This document shows positions 11,964 through 20,776 of a DNA stretch of 64,000 bases, in pieces. A program made the position numbers and the translations under genes. Position 1 is the first letter of the stretch. Each line of letters starts with the position of its first letter. The notes beneath the pieces are model-generated. The model searched no databases, was not told the DNA's origin, and was given only the letters and a program-made list of their open reading frames with translations. The DNA is from an uncultured Victivallaceae bacterium (lineage in GTDB: Bacteria; Verrucomicrobiota; Lentisphaeria; Victivallales; Victivallaceae). Location: contig CALXOD010000057.1 in the NCBI GenBank assembly GCA_944389925.1, positions 1 to 64,000 on the forward strand, in the 5' to 3' direction.

Positions 11964-13235
11964 TTACTCCGCACGCAGGACGGTGATGGGATTCTGCTGT
12001 GCCGCCTGCCAGGCGGGATAGGTCCCGAAGATGACGCCAACCAGACTGGAGATCAGCATCGACGCCACGATGCTCCAGAGCGAATAAACCGTCGGCATGC
12101 CGGCATAATAGGTGATAATCTGAGAAATCCCGATCCCCAGGATAACCCCGAGCAGACCACCAAGCGAGGTAAGCGAGACGGTTTCGATGAGGAACTGGAG
12201 CAGAATGTCGACTTTCTGAGCGCCGAGAGCGCGTCTGGTGCCGATTTCCTTGCGGCGTTCAAATACACTGGCGAGCATGATGTTCATAATGCCGATGCCG
12301 CCGACGATCAGCGAAATACCGGCGATTGAACTCATGACAATGGTGAAGATGTTCTGCGTCGCTTCACGTTGTTTGAGCAGGTCAAGCGGGACGATAACCT
12401 CCCAGTCCTTGACCTTGGAGTGGGATTTCCCCAGATAGTTGATCAGGCGCCGGGCGGTATTGTCGATATATTCCAGATTCCGGATTTTCAGCAGAAAGAC
12501 GTCGTAGTCAATCAGCGTGACCCGGATACCGGTGCCGTCATCGGTATAGGCGTAGTTTCCGTAAAGAATTTCCGAGGTGGGGAAGGGGATGAGAATCATA
12601 TCGTTGGGATTGCCCACTTCCGGATAGGTGGCTCCGATGTCGTTATGGAGCACACCGATCACGCGGAATACCTGGCCCTCGACGCGGATGGGGGCGCCAA
12701 TGACGTCCCGGGCGCCGAGAGGAAAAAGTTTCCGCTTTACATTGCTGCCGATGACGCAGATATTTTGAGGAGAATGAAAATCCAATCCGGAAAACCAGCG
12801 TCCCGCCACCATGCCGCTGGCTGAATCTTCCAGAAAATCCCGGTCCACGCCGACCAGTTTCAAGTCCATCCGATCCAATCCCTTGAGAATTTTCTTACGG
12901 GCATCCCGCACCCGGGTGATGCGTTCAATGTTGTCAAGTTCCAGGATCTTCCGGCGGTCCACCGCGCTCAGACCGTAAGCATCGATCCGGCTGGTACGGC
13001 TGGAGCTGACGCCGGCACCGGCGGATGGCGGTTTTTTGGAATAAACGATAATTTTGTCGATCCCCATAGCTTCAATCTGTTCCAGAGCCTTACGTTTGGC
13101 TCCTTCGGAGATGGCCAGCATGGCGATGACACTGCCGACGCCGAAGATGACGCCGAGTGAGGTCAGCACCGACCGCACTTTATGCAGACGCAGATTCTGC
13201 AAAGAAAGCTGAACGATGTCACTGAAAAGCATCAT
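11964..13235 (-). CDS. MacB/FtsX-type ABC transporter permease
   Basis: Permease (423 aa) of the mechanotransmitting MacB/LolC/FtsX superfamily. One N-terminal TM (about 18-45, after LHKVRSVLTSLGVIFGVGSV) is followed by a large periplasmic domain (about 50-290) and three C-terminal TMs. The conserved ERRKEIGTRRALGA motif precedes the third helix. It overlaps the ATPase gene by four bases (ATGA) and is the last gene of a four-gene operon with a secretin, a membrane fusion protein and the ATPase. Such permeases do not form a pore but drive periplasmic partners. The substrate is unknown. Confidence 0.9.
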   Translation of the reverse strand: MMLFSDIVQLSLQNLRLHKVRSVLTSLGVIFGVGSVIAMLAISEGAKRKALEQIEAMGIDKIIVYSKKPPSAGAGVSSSRTSRIDAYGLSAVDRRKILELDNIERITRVRDARKKILKGLDRMDLKLVGVDRDFLEDSASGMVAGRWFSGLDFHSPQNICVIGSNVKRKLFPLGARDVIGAPIRVEGQVFRVIGVLHNDIGATYPEVGNPNDMILIPFPTSEILYGNYAYTDDGTGIRVTLIDYDVFLLKIRNLEYIDNTARRLINYLGKSHSKVKDWEVIVPLDLLKQREATQNIFTIVMSSIAGISLIVGGIGIMNIMLASVFERRKEIGTRRALGAQKVDILLQFLIETVSLTSLGGLLGVILGIGISQIITYYAGMPTVYSLWSIVASMLISSLVGVIFGTYPAWQAAQQNPITVLRAE

Positions 13236-13984
13236 GATGCAAAGGCCCCCTGGGGAAATTCCTGCACCACCAGACCGTCCCGTAACCGGATCACCTGATC
13301 GTAATGCGGTTCAAACAGAGGGTTGTGAGTCACCATGACAATGGTGACGTTTTGTTCCCGGTTGAGACGGTGAAAGAGATTCATGATTTCGTTGCCGGTT
13401 TTTTCGTCCAGGTTGCCGGTCGGTTCGTCAGCCAGCAGGAAGGTCGGATGGTTGCCGAGCGACCGGGCGACCGCCACCCGCTGGCATTCCCCGCCAGATA
13501 ACTGAGTGGGGCGGTGTCCGAGCCGGTGCCCGAGTCCAACCTGTTTAGCCAGCTCAAGGGCACGGGCCCGCCGAACACGCCGCGAAACGCGGTTGTAGAT
13601 CATCGGCACTTCGATATTCTGTTCGATCGTCAGATAGGGGAACAGATTGAAACTTTGGAAGATGAATCCGATTTTCCGGTTGCGGATCGTCGCCTGTTCC
13701 TGATCGGTCAGAGTTTCCACATTGATGTCTTCGAGCAGATAACTGCCGGATGTGGGCACGTCGAGCATTCCCAGAATATTCAACATAGTCGATTTCCCGG
13801 AACCTGAAGTTCCGACAATGCCGACGAACTGGCCGCGTCGGATTTCAAAGGAAATCCCCTTGAGGACGTTGACGGCCAGCTCGCCGGAATTGTAGGTTTT
13901 CCGGATGTCGCTTAACCGTAGAACGACCTCGCCGCCGGCGTAAGGGGTAATTTCAAACGGGGGAATGCTGTTGCTCATGGTCAT
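13232..13984 (-). CDS. MacB/LolD-type ABC transporter ATPase
   Basis: Nucleotide-binding subunit (250 aa) pairing with the adjacent permease. Walker A GTSGSGKST is at about residues 58-66. The signature LSGGECQRVAVARS has C where Q is usual, and Walker B FLLADEPTGNLD includes the TGNLD motif typical of MacB/LolD/FtsE ATPases. In E. coli MacB the ATPase and permease are fused; here they are separate genes. A second ATG at 13978 could also serve as the start. Confidence 0.92.
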   Translation of the reverse strand: MTMSNSIPPFEITPYAGGEVVLRLSDIRKTYNSGELAVNVLKGISFEIRRGQFVGIVGTSGSGKSTMLNILGMLDVPTSGSYLLEDINVETLTDQEQATIRNRKIGFIFQSFNLFPYLTIEQNIEVPMIYNRVSRRVRRARALELAKQVGLGHRLGHRPTQLSGGECQRVAVARSLGNHPTFLLADEPTGNLDEKTGNEIMNLFHRLNREQNVTIVMVTHNPLFEPHYDQVIRLRDGLVVQEFPQGAFAS

Positions 13985-13990
13985 TCAAGG

Positions 13991-15514
13991 TCAGGATTCA
14001 CTGTCCTGTTTTCTCTGATAGGGGCGGTAGAGGTAGACGATGTCGTTTTCCTTGAGCCCGTCGAGGATCTGCACATAATTGCTGTTGGCTTCCCCGATGG
14101 TGACCGGCACCTCTTTGGGAACTCCACCGCGATGACAGTAGACGAAAAATGACGAATTGTTTTCGAATACCGCTTCCACCGGTACGAACAGCACATCACG
14201 CAGCACTTTGGAAATGACTTCGACTTCCACGCTCATGCCATTGACCAGCTGAGGATTCTGTTCGTCCAGAGTGATACGGGAATTGTAGACCTTGGGGGAC
14301 GCACTGTCCCAGCTGATCTGGTTGACCGGAAGCGTGGCGATCTGACTGATTGCCCCGCCCAGTTTGAGGGTCGGCAGGGAGTCGGGGGTGATGACCACCC
14401 GGTTCCCGGTCCGGATCCGGGAACGGTACTGTTCCGGCAGGTCGAAATCCACCATCAGGTTGTCCATTTCCGGAATAGTCAGGATGATCTGGCCTTTCCA
14501 GATGTCCATCCCCGGTTTTACGTCCGGATTGCCCCAGCGTCGGTCGGGGTCGGCATAAATGACGATCCCGTCGGCAGGGGCGACCAGTTTCATCATTGGC
14601 AGATAGGATTCGTATTTTTCCAGCTGGTTGACAATCCGGCGGATATTGGTACGCAGGTTGTCCACCAGTTTCTTTTTCTGCACGAGGTTGGAGGCGGTGG
14701 AAATGCGTACCCGTTCCCGGTTCAATTTCGCCTGCTCCAGTTCGTTGTAGAGACGCAGCAGGGTGATCGGATTGTCGTAACGCTGGAATGCTTTACGATC
14801 AGTCTGGGCGCTGGAAAGGGCGTTTTCTGCCGTGTCGATCTTATTCTGCAGGTCACGGAGTGCTTTCTGGTTCTGCTGCTCGCCGGCTTCGTCGCTGACG
14901 CCTTCTTCCTTGATCGCTTTCAGTTTATCTTCATAATCCTGCTTGGCATTGAGCAGATTGGTTTCCGCCGTCGCAATTTTCAATGCAAGATTTTTTCTGG
15001 TGTTGGAGCGTTCAAGCCGCAAATATTTGCGGAGCGCCGCCTCTGCCTGGTTCAGACGGTCTTCTGCAACCTTGAGGTCTACTTCGTTGCTGCTTTCCTG
15101 AACTTTGGCGTTTTCGATGGCGATGGCAAGCTCCTTTTCCTGGTTGGAATAGGAGATGCGCAGATCGTCAATTTTCTCCTTCAGCTCATCGGTTTCAAAA
15201 ACCGCCAACACGTCCCCCTTCTTAACCTTGGCGTTTTCATCGACCACCGAAAGAAGCTTGGTGCGGTAATTGGCCTGGAGTGACAGTTTGTGTTTTTCAC
15301 TGGCACTGACATTGCCGCTGAGACGCAACCCGATGATCAGATTGTCGCGTTTGACCTTGAAGGTCCGGTCGATAGCGGTATCTCCGCGACGGATGGCGAA
15401 CTGTTCATCCGCGCGGCGCTCCGCGAGATAGACCACTCCCCAGCAGTAACCGGCTGCTGCCAGCAAAACTGGAACCGCGGTCAGAATGGTGATTTTCATC
15501 CAGCGAATGCGCAC
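13991..15514 (-). CDS. Membrane fusion protein (MacA/HlyD family) with very long coiled coil
   Basis: Periplasmic adaptor of 507 aa. An N-terminal TM anchor (about 6-30) precedes the first half of a lipoyl domain (about 60-110, SVVDENAKVKKGDVLAVFET). A heptad-rich helical hairpin of roughly 180-200 residues follows (about 110-300). The second lipoyl half (VAPADGIVIYADP) and a beta-barrel/membrane-proximal region complete the chain. MacA hairpins are much shorter, so this adaptor could reach deep into the periplasm. It lies between the secretin gene and the ATPase gene, which suggests it bridges inner-membrane MacB and the outer-membrane secretin. Confidence 0.88.
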   Translation of the reverse strand: MRIRWMKITILTAVPVLLAAAGYCWGVVYLAERRADEQFAIRRGDTAIDRTFKVKRDNLIIGLRLSGNVSASEKHKLSLQANYRTKLLSVVDENAKVKKGDVLAVFETDELKEKIDDLRISYSNQEKELAIAIENAKVQESSNEVDLKVAEDRLNQAEAALRKYLRLERSNTRKNLALKIATAETNLLNAKQDYEDKLKAIKEEGVSDEAGEQQNQKALRDLQNKIDTAENALSSAQTDRKAFQRYDNPITLLRLYNELEQAKLNRERVRISTASNLVQKKKLVDNLRTNIRRIVNQLEKYESYLPMMKLVAPADGIVIYADPDRRWGNPDVKPGMDIWKGQIILTIPEMDNLMVDFDLPEQYRSRIRTGNRVVITPDSLPTLKLGGAISQIATLPVNQISWDSASPKVYNSRITLDEQNPQLVNGMSVEVEVISKVLRDVLFVPVEAVFENNSSFFVYCHRGGVPKEVPVTIGEANSNYVQILDGLKENDIVYLYRPYQRKQDSES

Positions 15515-15533
15515 TTTGTCACCCCTTTGTTAC

Positions 15534-16958
15534 TTACTGTTTGGGGATGCCGGCGGGAATTTCACCGGTCGTGGATTCGCTTTTCTGCAGCGGATCGCGG
15601 TCGATGAATTCGTGTTTGACCTGCTGCAGGGTATTTTCCGTTTGCGGCAGCGTCGGGGACTTGCGGATGATGTCGCCAATGGCATTGCTGCTCCGGGCGG
15701 TTTCATCCGGGTCGAAGAGAATTCCATCGGCCAGGTCGTCCGGCGTTAAAATACGCACCCGGAGGAAGAACAACAGCTGAATCAGTTCTTTTTCCCGATA
15801 TTTGGAGGTGAAGAGTTCTCCGAAGTATGGAATATCGCTCAGAAACGGGATACGTTCCTGGCGGACAGATTCCCGGTTGTTATACAAGCCGCCCATGACG
15901 ATGGTCTGGCCGTCTTCCAGTTTGATGTTGGTTTCGATATTCCGGATGGAAATCACCGGGACCTGATAAGAACTGGACCCTTGGGAAATCGTCTGATAAC
16001 TCTGGATGTTGGACACCTGCGGGGAGACCAGCAATGTCACGTTGTCCTCATTGATCATTTTCGGTGTTACATCCAAAGTGACCCCGACCCGTTTGAAGGT
16101 GGTACTGGTCTGGATACTGCCGTTCGTATTGGTCTGAGACTGAATCGGCACGTCCTGACCGTTGGAAATGGTGGATTTTTCATTGCGGGCCACGACAATG
16201 GTCGGCGAAGAGAGGACTTTGGCATCCTGGGCATTGAGCAACCACTGGAAGGCGGCATGAATGCTTTTGTCGCCGGAGGTGAAAACCCAGTCCATGCCGC
16301 CGCCGTCAGTCGTTGTGGTCGGTGCGAGTGAAGTGGTGGTCATACCGGCACTGTTATTGACGGCGCCGGGAGTTGCCTGGCCGTTTTTGTCGATGACGGT
16401 TACGTCCTTGGTCTGGTTGAAGGTCAGCGACATGTTGCGCTGCATGCCGTCGGAAATCATGATTTCCACGACTTTGGCTTCGATCAGCACCTGGGCGGAG
16501 GGCACATCAATGGCAGGCAGAATTTCCGCCAGAGCTTCTATATTTTCTTTTTTGTCATTAATAATGAGCATATTCTGCTCTTCTGTCGGTTCCACATAAC
16601 CGTCATTGGTAATCAGAGATTCAATGCTGGTGGACAACTTATTGGCGGTATTGTAACGGCAGCGGTAAACCAGCGTGGCACGACCGCTGATGCCGGGCAG
16701 GATCTTCAGATAACGCTGTTCCGGGACGGAGCGATTTCTGCGGGTTTTCTGCACCGGAGCGAACAATTCCCGGAGTTGGTCTGCGACGCGGACCACATTT
16801 TCCCGCCCGGCCTGAATATCTTCCGGTGTACGAACCACGATTTCTCCGGGATTGAGGATGGAGGGCGGATTGCCGTTCTGAACCGCTGCGAATGCGGATG
16901 AACAACAAAGCGTCAGTACACTGACACCGAACAGTCGGAAGCACGATGGTCGAAACAT
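15534..16958 (-). CDS. Secretin (GspD/PilQ-type outer-membrane channel)
   Basis: Outer-membrane secretin-family protein of 474 aa with a signal peptide ending near SSAFA. An N1-like module (about 95-165) is followed by the secretin core (about 190-420): VLIEAKVVEIMISDG, GVTLDVTPKMINEDNVTLL, GQTIVMGGLYNNRES, then IPFLSDIPYFGELFTSK and the closing LLFFLRVRIL. It is short because N0, N2 and N3 repeats are missing. It begins an operon with a membrane fusion protein and MacB-like ABC subunits. No GspE/F/G-type genes are nearby, so this does not look like a type II or type IV pilus locus. Confidence 0.9.
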   Translation of the reverse strand: MFRPSCFRLFGVSVLTLCCSSAFAAVQNGNPPSILNPGEIVVRTPEDIQAGRENVVRVADQLRELFAPVQKTRRNRSVPEQRYLKILPGISGRATLVYRCRYNTANKLSTSIESLITNDGYVEPTEEQNMLIINDKKENIEALAEILPAIDVPSAQVLIEAKVVEIMISDGMQRNMSLTFNQTKDVTVIDKNGQATPGAVNNSAGMTTTSLAPTTTTDGGGMDWVFTSGDKSIHAAFQWLLNAQDAKVLSSPTIVVARNEKSTISNGQDVPIQSQTNTNGSIQTSTTFKRVGVTLDVTPKMINEDNVTLLVSPQVSNIQSYQTISQGSSSYQVPVISIRNIETNIKLEDGQTIVMGGLYNNRESVRQERIPFLSDIPYFGELFTSKYREKELIQLLFFLRVRILTPDDLADGILFDPDETARSSNAIGDIIRKSPTLPQTENTLQQVKHEFIDRDPLQKSESTTGEIPAGIPKQ

Positions 16959-17015: not shown

Positions 17016-17043
17016 ATTATACATCTGTTTTCTGGAAAATCAA
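17016..17043 (-). promoter_or_regulatory. Promoter of the secretin-exporter operon
   Basis: Minus strand TTGATT (complement of 17038-17043), 16-bp spacer, consensus TATAAT (complement of 17016-17021), about 58 bases upstream of the secretin ATG. Confidence 0.65.
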
Positions 17044-19393: not shown

Positions 19394-20776
19394 ATGGATG
19401 AACAGGGGATTTCGGCGGCAGAGATCTGGGCCGTGGCCGCCGGGAGGTTGAAAAACAAGAGCCTGCAATGTTACCAGCAGTGGTTCCAGCCGGTAGTGCC
19501 GATCCGGATCGATGATGGTAATCAGCTGGTATTGGGGGTGCCGGACAAATTTTTCGGCGAGTGGATCTCGGATAATCTGGGGGATCTGCTTCAGGAGGTG
19601 TTGTCCGGGATTCAGGGCAGGGATTACGCCTATGCCGTAGAGGCCGGGTATCAGGCACCACCGCTTCCCGCAGCTCCGGTTGCGTCTCCTGTTGTTCCGG
19701 AGCCGGTGCGGCAGAATCGGAAAATTGCTCCGTCCGCCGTAAGAGTGTCGCTGATTCGGCATACATTTGAAAATTTTGTAGTCAGCGAAGAGAATCGTTA
19801 TGCGTATATGGCGGTCAAGTCCGCCGTGGAAAGCCCCGGGGTGTTGTATAATCCCTTGTATGTTTACGGCAGCAGCGGGGTCGGCAAAACACACCTGTTG
19901 CAGGCGGCACAGCATGCGACGCTCTCTGGTGAAGGGGGGCTGCGGGTTCGATATGCGCCATGCAGCGAACTTCTGGACAATTTTTACGAACTTTTGCAGA
20001 ACAAACGCAGCTTGAGTGAATTCCGCTCTTCCGTGCGTGATGTGGATATTCTGCTGGTGGACGACGTGCATGTGCTGGCAAATAAACCGCAGATGCAGGA
20101 GGAGTTCTTCAATCTCTTCAATACGCTGTACGGGCAGCAGAAGCAGATTATTCTCACATCCGATAAGCAGCCCTGTGAAATCAAAGGACTGGAGCCGCGG
20201 CTGGTGACCCGCTTCGAATCCGGGGTGACCACGGAAATCGGGGTCCCGGAGGTGGAAGGGCGGTTGACGATTCTGCGCATGATGCGGGAAGACACCTTGA
20301 TTAAAGTCAAGCTGGGAGATCCGATTCTGGAGTTTCTGGCCGTGCAGATCTCTTCCAGCGTGCGGCGTTTGAAAGGCGCTTTTATGCGGCTTGCTTCTTT
20401 TGCCTCCATGCGTGGATCCGGACAATTAACGGTGCAGCAAGCTGAGGAGCTGCTGTCTGCACAATTGGCGCAGGAGTGTTCCGCCCGGTCGGTTTCGATG
20501 GATGAAATTCAGCGGAGTGTCGCAGACCAGTTCGGCATCAAAGTGGCGGATCTGCTCGGTACCAAGCGGCCGCAGCATATTGCCGAGCCGCGACTGGTGG
20601 CCATGTATCTCTGTCGCCGGTTGACATCGCATTCACTGCCGGAGATTGGGGCGGCTTTCGGGAAAACACATGGAACTGTTCTGAATGCTGTCAACAAGGT
20701 TCCGAAATTATGTGAGCGTGACGAGGCGTTGCGTCGAACCGTGATGCAGCTGGAGCAACAACTTAAACGCGGCTGA
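19394..20776 (+). CDS. dnaA: Chromosomal replication initiator DnaA
   Basis: AAA+ initiator of replication, 460 aa. Domain I (about 1-85) and a Pro-rich linker (about 90-115) precede the AAA+ domain with Walker A YGSSGVGKTH (about 155) and Walker B ILLVDDVHVL. C-terminal domain IV contains AEPRLVAMYLCRRLTSHSLP, which keeps the minor-groove arginine. The box-reading segment is FGKTHGTVLNA, whereas the usual form is FGGRDHTTVLHA. One residue is lost and the Asp and first Thr of DHTT are replaced. AAAGGCG precedes the ATG. A strong terminator follows. Confidence 0.96.
   Translation: MDEQGISAAEIWAVAAGRLKNKSLQCYQQWFQPVVPIRIDDGNQLVLGVPDKFFGEWISDNLGDLLQEVLSGIQGRDYAYAVEAGYQAPPLPAAPVASPVVPEPVRQNRKIAPSAVRVSLIRHTFENFVVSEENRYAYMAVKSAVESPGVLYNPLYVYGSSGVGKTHLLQAAQHATLSGEGGLRVRYAPCSELLDNFYELLQNKRSLSEFRSSVRDVDILLVDDVHVLANKPQMQEEFFNLFNTLYGQQKQIILTSDKQPCEIKGLEPRLVTRFESGVTTEIGVPEVEGRLTILRMMREDTLIKVKLGDPILEFLAVQISSSVRRLKGAFMRLASFASMRGSGQLTVQQAEELLSAQLAQECSARSVSMDEIQRSVADQFGIKVADLLGTKRPQHIAEPRLVAMYLCRRLTSHSLPEIGAAFGKTHGTVLNAVNKVPKLCERDEALRRTVMQLEQQLKRG

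Follow-up and report, generated by a model that had tools for sequence, protein, structure and literature searches.

Tripartite exporters that work through an adaptor have been described as ending in a duct of the TolC family, and secretins are known as the exits of T2SS, T3SS, pili and filamentous phage. In MacB-type exporters, no substrate passes across the inner membrane through MacB; ATP-driven motion in the periplasm pushes a periplasmic substrate into the channel built by adaptor and duct (PMC5985334). The signature RxxxLxxxxxxS (or T) at the tip of the adaptor hairpin is required for TolC binding in MacA, AcrA and HlyD (PMC3391258). Here, we describe a locus in the window (the whole stretch of 64,000 nucleotides analysed) of an uncultured Victivallaceae bacterium, whose four genes, as judged from sequence comparisons, very probably encode a single MacAB-class exporter that spans the cell envelope, with a secretin instead of the TolC-family outer-membrane factor.

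The genome measures 2.8 Mb, and the locus lies on its contig C57. The preliminary description had listed four tightly spaced minus-strand genes for a secretin, an adaptor, an ATPase and a permease, and this was confirmed by the open reading frames as well as by Pfam and NCBIfam searches (Table 1), with spacings of 19, 6 and −4 bases from the secretin gene down to the permease gene as calculated from the ORF coordinates. The one good promoter that it had also reported held in part: the best match, read from 17043 to 17016 and located some 58 bases upstream of the secretin start codon (ATG), is to be taken as plausible, because other, weaker matches were present as well. NCBIfam returned GspD/PilQ, MacB/LolD and MacB as the best matches of the secretin, the ATPase and the permease, respectively. 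The ATPase sequence contains a complete set of motifs (Walker A GTSGSGKS, signature LSGGE, Walker B LLADEP and switch VTHN), and its LolD and MacB scores are nearly equal. The permease, which combines a periplasmic MacB_PCD domain with an FtsX domain, is MacB-like, scoring 165 bits versus 34 bits for LolC/E, and MacB structures were its best PDB matches. The genes flanking the locus are unrelated, namely a Glt_symporter-family gene on one side and a prephenate dehydrogenase gene on the other (Pfam). A dnaA gene was also observed at 19394–20776 on the plus strand, about 2.4 kb from the promoter end of the operon (Bac_DnaA E=8e-50, with DnaA_N and DnaA_C present).

Table 1. Features of the secretin–adaptor–ATPase–permease locus and their positions in the window.
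Feature	Position	Strand	Basis or remark
Secretin, 474 aa	15534–16958	minus	ORF; PF00263 E=4e-43 and a single Secretin_N (PF03958)
MacA-like periplasmic adaptor (membrane fusion protein), 507 aa, GTG start	13991–15514	minus	HlyD_D23/HlyD_3, RND_mfp
LolD/MacB-type ABC ATPase, 250 aa	13232–13984	minus	ABC_tran E=5e-32
MacB-type (type VII ABC) permease, 423 aa	11964–13235	minus	MacB_PCD E=4e-29, FtsX E=1e-22
Adaptor hairpin tip, residues 194–223	14846–14935	minus	Position of the TolC-docking motif in TolC-type adaptors; motif absent
Promoter-like site TTGATT-16-TATAAT	17016–17043	minus	10/12 match to consensus, upstream of the secretin gene

The secretin is laid out as a Sec-type signal peptide, a helix (residues 45–65), a ring (N-type) domain (84–150), the core (156–404) and C-terminal helices. 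Its AF2 model (pLDDT 77) matched the PilQ and GspD folds best in the PDB, and among family profiles GspD was the closest. In a test for T2SS features, the secretin core domain was present and the full N0–N3 periplasmic domain set of GspD was absent: the N0–N2 part is missing, with only one Secretin_N identified by Pfam and the GspD model of NCBIfam matched from position 289 of 600 onwards. The conserved helix that precedes the ring domain is a candidate contact site.

A search of 61 related genomes yielded secretin orthologues that form a sharp group above 150 bits, followed by a gap down to 93, and the order secretin–adaptor–ATPase–permease is kept in the relatives with a long enough contig, down to approximately 32% secretin identity; the exception is genome G040, where the secretin and the ABC genes are on separate contigs. 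Scanning 84,980 species genomes with the adaptor profile and examining the 80 best loci, we found the secretin gene directly upstream and on the same strand in 74/80, and the remaining six end at a contig edge by the adaptor. The carriers span Lentisphaeria, Kiritimatiellae and other Verrucomicrobiota, plus two Planctomycetota loci, and include the named strains Victivallis vadensis DSM 14823 and Lentisphaerota strain zth2; a plasmid search yielded remote adaptors only. Among 289 Verrucomicrobiota genomes, the secretin and a strongly matching adaptor were present in the same 55, being adjacent in 54 of them, and the same gene order and strand recur in 54/55 of the secretin-holding genomes, so that the four-gene arrangement is far beyond chance. 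A naive Fisher test of this co-occurrence, ignoring genome kinship, gave 1e-60. Since the genomes are related, joint gain or loss is the stronger argument: most genomes of genus g16 lack both the secretin and the adaptor, and its two carriers (G204 and G276) have both. Secretin distances correlated with those of the adaptor, the ATPase and the permease (Spearman 0.90, 0.87 and 0.92, respectively), and pairwise correlations among all four proteins ranged from 0.87 to 0.94. Relatives in which the secretin gene is separated from the ABC genes were limited to G040 and the planctomycete genome G426. Judged by these sequence comparisons, the four-gene unit is real and conserved. An attempt to identify the substrate from neighbouring genes was given up, as no substrate gene is linked and no flanking family is conserved beside the unit at about 85 loci, where a prepilin-like family is the commonest neighbour.

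Weaker relatives of the adaptor (100–310 bits) occur widely in Verrucomicrobiota and Planctomycetota. At 30 Verrucomicrobiota loci, their operons consist of adaptor, ATPase and permease, never with a secretin of this type, and in 26/30 a TolC-family (OEP) gene lies immediately upstream of the adaptor gene, that is, in the position of the secretin. The OEP channel in those operons usually has a lipobox, and Pfam PF02321 (OEP) was confirmed in all ten upstream genes tested. An OEP gene is absent at the window locus and at every secretin-linked locus compared, with the secretin in its place, and no case of a secretin and a TolC-family gene together in one related operon was found among the loci compared. 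Most of the Planctomycetota loci examined have an OEP gene in this position, two have a secretin (L267 and L270), and several have neither adjoining.

In a tree of the concatenated ATPase and permease sequences, with the conventional MacB of the Victivallaceae genome as the root, the secretin-linked operons formed one clade (UFBoot 100) nested among the OEP-linked operons. With the Planctomycetota added, the support for this clade was still 100, and it then included L265, L266 and L277. The last of these is OEP-linked and falls inside the clade with a weak exact placement (support 61). No outer-membrane gene adjoins L265 or L266, both of Planctomycetota; the order at L265 is ATPase–adaptor–permease, with the secretin orthologue of its genome on another contig (G426:C100), and no secretin was detected in the genome of L266. 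Two consecutive adaptor or adaptor-like genes were observed in the OEP-linked Planctomycetota operons L277 and L268. The tree and the gene orders would be read most simply as TolC having been exchanged for a secretin once, with a reversal or a second event possible in one case.

The AF2 model of the adaptor (pLDDT 89.8) has an N-terminal helix (residues 2–44), which is likely a membrane anchor, and an alpha-hairpin with arms at 109–204 and 209–308; its top fold match was MacA of MacAB–TolC (E=4e-23). The RLS motif (RxxxLxxxxxxS) is absent from the hairpin tip of the window adaptor, and the conventional MacA of the same genome keeps it in full (RAEQLRPSGAVS). As a discriminator, the strict published motif was discarded: it is absent in the secretin-linked adaptors, yet only 2/32 OEP-linked adaptors have it. 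Therefore, a relaxed, tip-aligned signature was used, and OEP-linked tips carry such a related signature, e.g. LLKEGFVTQDQV and LFDEKYVSETEY. This docking-type signature was found in OEP-linked adaptors in 27/32 (strict form) and 32/32 (relaxed form), the latter figure being partly by construction because the pattern was drawn up and tuned on these very sequences, and the informative number is thus the one for the secretin-linked adaptors, 0/69 with either form. No motif proper to the secretin-linked tips was obvious in the aligned tips, as their sequence is poorly conserved. Hairpin lengths measured by alignment were 200 residues in secretin-linked and 192 in OEP-linked adaptors, a difference of eight; the notion that the long hairpin is an adaptation to the secretin was rejected, since the OEP-linked relatives share it. 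Two secretin-linked adaptors have longer hairpins still, of 258 and 316 residues versus the median of 200, and probably belong to L240 and L276 (Verrucomicrobiota/Planctomycetota outside Lentisphaeria).

In the genome, seven matches to secretins and roughly ten to GspE-type proteins were found, and their gene contexts suggest a T2SS (C1), a Tad system (C67) and a T4P cluster of PilM/N/O type (C46), each with a secretin of its own, which at the T2SS locus is a protein of 994 aa. Because these loci have their own secretins, the window secretin would be an extra one that is tied to the ABC genes. The absence of GspE/F/G and pilin genes from the locus, as claimed in the preliminary description, was borne out: GspE, GspF and pseudopilin genes are lacking there, and across about 85 loci pilus and T2SS genes are not conserved beside the operon. 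Together with the separate secretins, this gives no sign that the window secretin co-varies with such genes. The T4P-like cluster (L090, G000:C46, 3698–13000) contains, behind the PilM/N/O-like genes, two large secretins of 824 and 857 aa in tandem, and pairs of secretin matches spaced by a few kb occur in relatives too, e.g. at G050:C55 and G055:C38. About four TolC-family (OEP) proteins are encoded elsewhere in the genome; a further OEP match at C67:59252 was rejected as the coiled coil of a conventional MacA. At two other loci, L180 (G000:C65, 2–7539) and L095 (G000:C51, 3–8733), a lipoprotein-like TolC-family gene (Pfam OEP) lies directly upstream of a gene for a giant protein, one of 1993 aa (Chlam_PMP repeats, DUF4347 and MBG domains) and one of 2348 aa, and both giant proteins contain LEDR(V/I)LF(E/D)(A/G)AA near the N-terminus. 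These two TolC-family proteins are candidate dedicated exporters of the giant surface proteins.

The secretin and the ABC exporter could be co-transcribed and yet be separate, the MacAB-like pair docking on a TolC-family protein encoded elsewhere and the secretin serving as an independent pore or as a spare of a T2SS or pilus. The roughly four OEP proteins encoded elsewhere speak for such a separation, as does the frequent location of tolC away from the macAB genes in other bacteria. We nevertheless consider it unlikely, as the secretin accompanies one particular ABC subfamily in 55/55 genomes and never occurs with the OEP-linked relatives of that subfamily, occupies the OEP position of those relatives next to an adaptor whose tip lacks the TolC-docking signature, and is encoded in a genome whose T2SS, Tad and T4P loci are supplied with secretins already. 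It is also rather improbable that the ABC pair, instead of exporting through the secretin, uses ATP-driven motion in the periplasm to assemble, insert or gate it, or to deliver lipids or lipoproteins, in the manner of Lol or FtsEX and with the adaptor as a lever. Type VII ABC proteins do include LolCDE and FtsEX, neither of which is a tripartite exporter (PMC5985334), and the near-equal LolD and MacB scores of the ATPase and the lack of a linked substrate gene would suit such a role; the clear preference of the permease for MacB over LolC/E and the MacA fold of the adaptor do not. Furthermore, the same three inner parts are combined with a plain efflux channel in the OEP-linked operons, and this speaks for a conduit.

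A reduced T2SS or pilus machine, driven by a borrowed ABC motor and still moving a pseudopilin-like piston, seems hardly credible. The secretin core is indeed closest to GspD, and a prepilin-like gene occurs near the operon at 11 of the approximately 85 loci, although genes of this kind are probably simply abundant in these genomes; however, neither GspE/F nor a pseudopilin is conserved at the locus, and the ABC part groups with the OEP-linked exporters. The earlier proposal, namely that the secretin replaces TolC as the outer-membrane part of a MacAB-like machine, is supported by the co-occurrence, by the exchange of OEP for secretin in one operon position, by the clade with support of 100, by the loss of the tip signature, and by the separate secretins of the T2SS, T4P and Tad loci.

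In an exporter of this kind, the ATPase and the MacB-type permease would form the inner-membrane motor, whose mechanotransmission would act on periplasmic substrates, and the MacA-like adaptor, anchored in the inner membrane, would reach across the periplasm by its hairpin, each arm of which is about 100 residues long. Its tips would contact the periplasmic ring of the short secretin, which is without N0–N2, and the substrate would leave via the gated secretin pore. From the sequences, we infer the physical complex, the contact surface between tip and ring, the direction of transport and the periplasmic origin of the substrate. As secretin pores are wide, larger or folded substrates, which the preliminary description had envisaged, could be guessed at as cargo by analogy. 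MacA forms a hexamer and secretins form 12–15-mers, and this symmetry mismatch, which would need reconciling, was counted against the exporter. More broadly, it appears likely that a type VII (MacB) ABC motor driving periplasmic substrates through a secretin defines a distinct class of trans-envelope secretion machine, spread over Lentisphaeria, Kiritimatiellae, other Verrucomicrobiota and some Planctomycetota. This class would probably have arisen when a secretin replaced the TolC-family channel of an existing exporter.

Searches of the open-access literature (subscription papers and preprints being outside the scope) turned up no report of a secretin paired with a MacAB-type exporter, and this variant of the tripartite MacAB exporter is apparently undescribed. 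A natural swap between TolC and secretin would mean that the junction of adaptor and channel can be rebuilt by evolution, and the TolC-linked and secretin-linked relatives provide a paired set for finding the residues that specify the outer-membrane partner. In addition, such a swap points to a path by which larger substrates might leave Verrucomicrobiota of the gut and the environment, about whose secretion little is known. The exporter is testable, because carriers exist as named strains.

Compared with the known systems, features of type I secretion (HlyBD–TolC) are absent, as the permease is of the MacB_PCD/FtsX type and not of the HlyB fold, and no OEP gene is present at the locus. With the secretins of T2SS (GspD) and T4P (PilQ), the window secretin shares the core fold and sequence, most strongly those of GspD, but it has one N-type domain, and GspE/F/G, pilus and assembly-platform genes are lacking at the locus. 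With MacAB–TolC of E. coli, the locus shares a MacB-type permease and ATPase (here encoded by separate genes) and an adaptor of the MacA fold, and differs in having a secretin as the outer-membrane part, no RLS docking tip, and a hairpin about twice as long (200 residues versus 104 in the conventional MacA of the same genome). Aat lipoprotein secretion, the nearest composite system found, likewise employs MacB/Lol-type ABC parts in a secretion pathway, but combines them with the TolC homologue AatA and an acyltransferase and has no secretin channel (PMC7943197). The OEP-linked exporters of Verrucomicrobiota and Planctomycetota, with the order OEP–adaptor–ATPase–permease, resemble the locus in gene order, in their related ATPase and permease and in a similarly long hairpin, and are distinguished from it by their TolC-family channel, usually with a lipobox, and by the docking-type signature at the adaptor tip.
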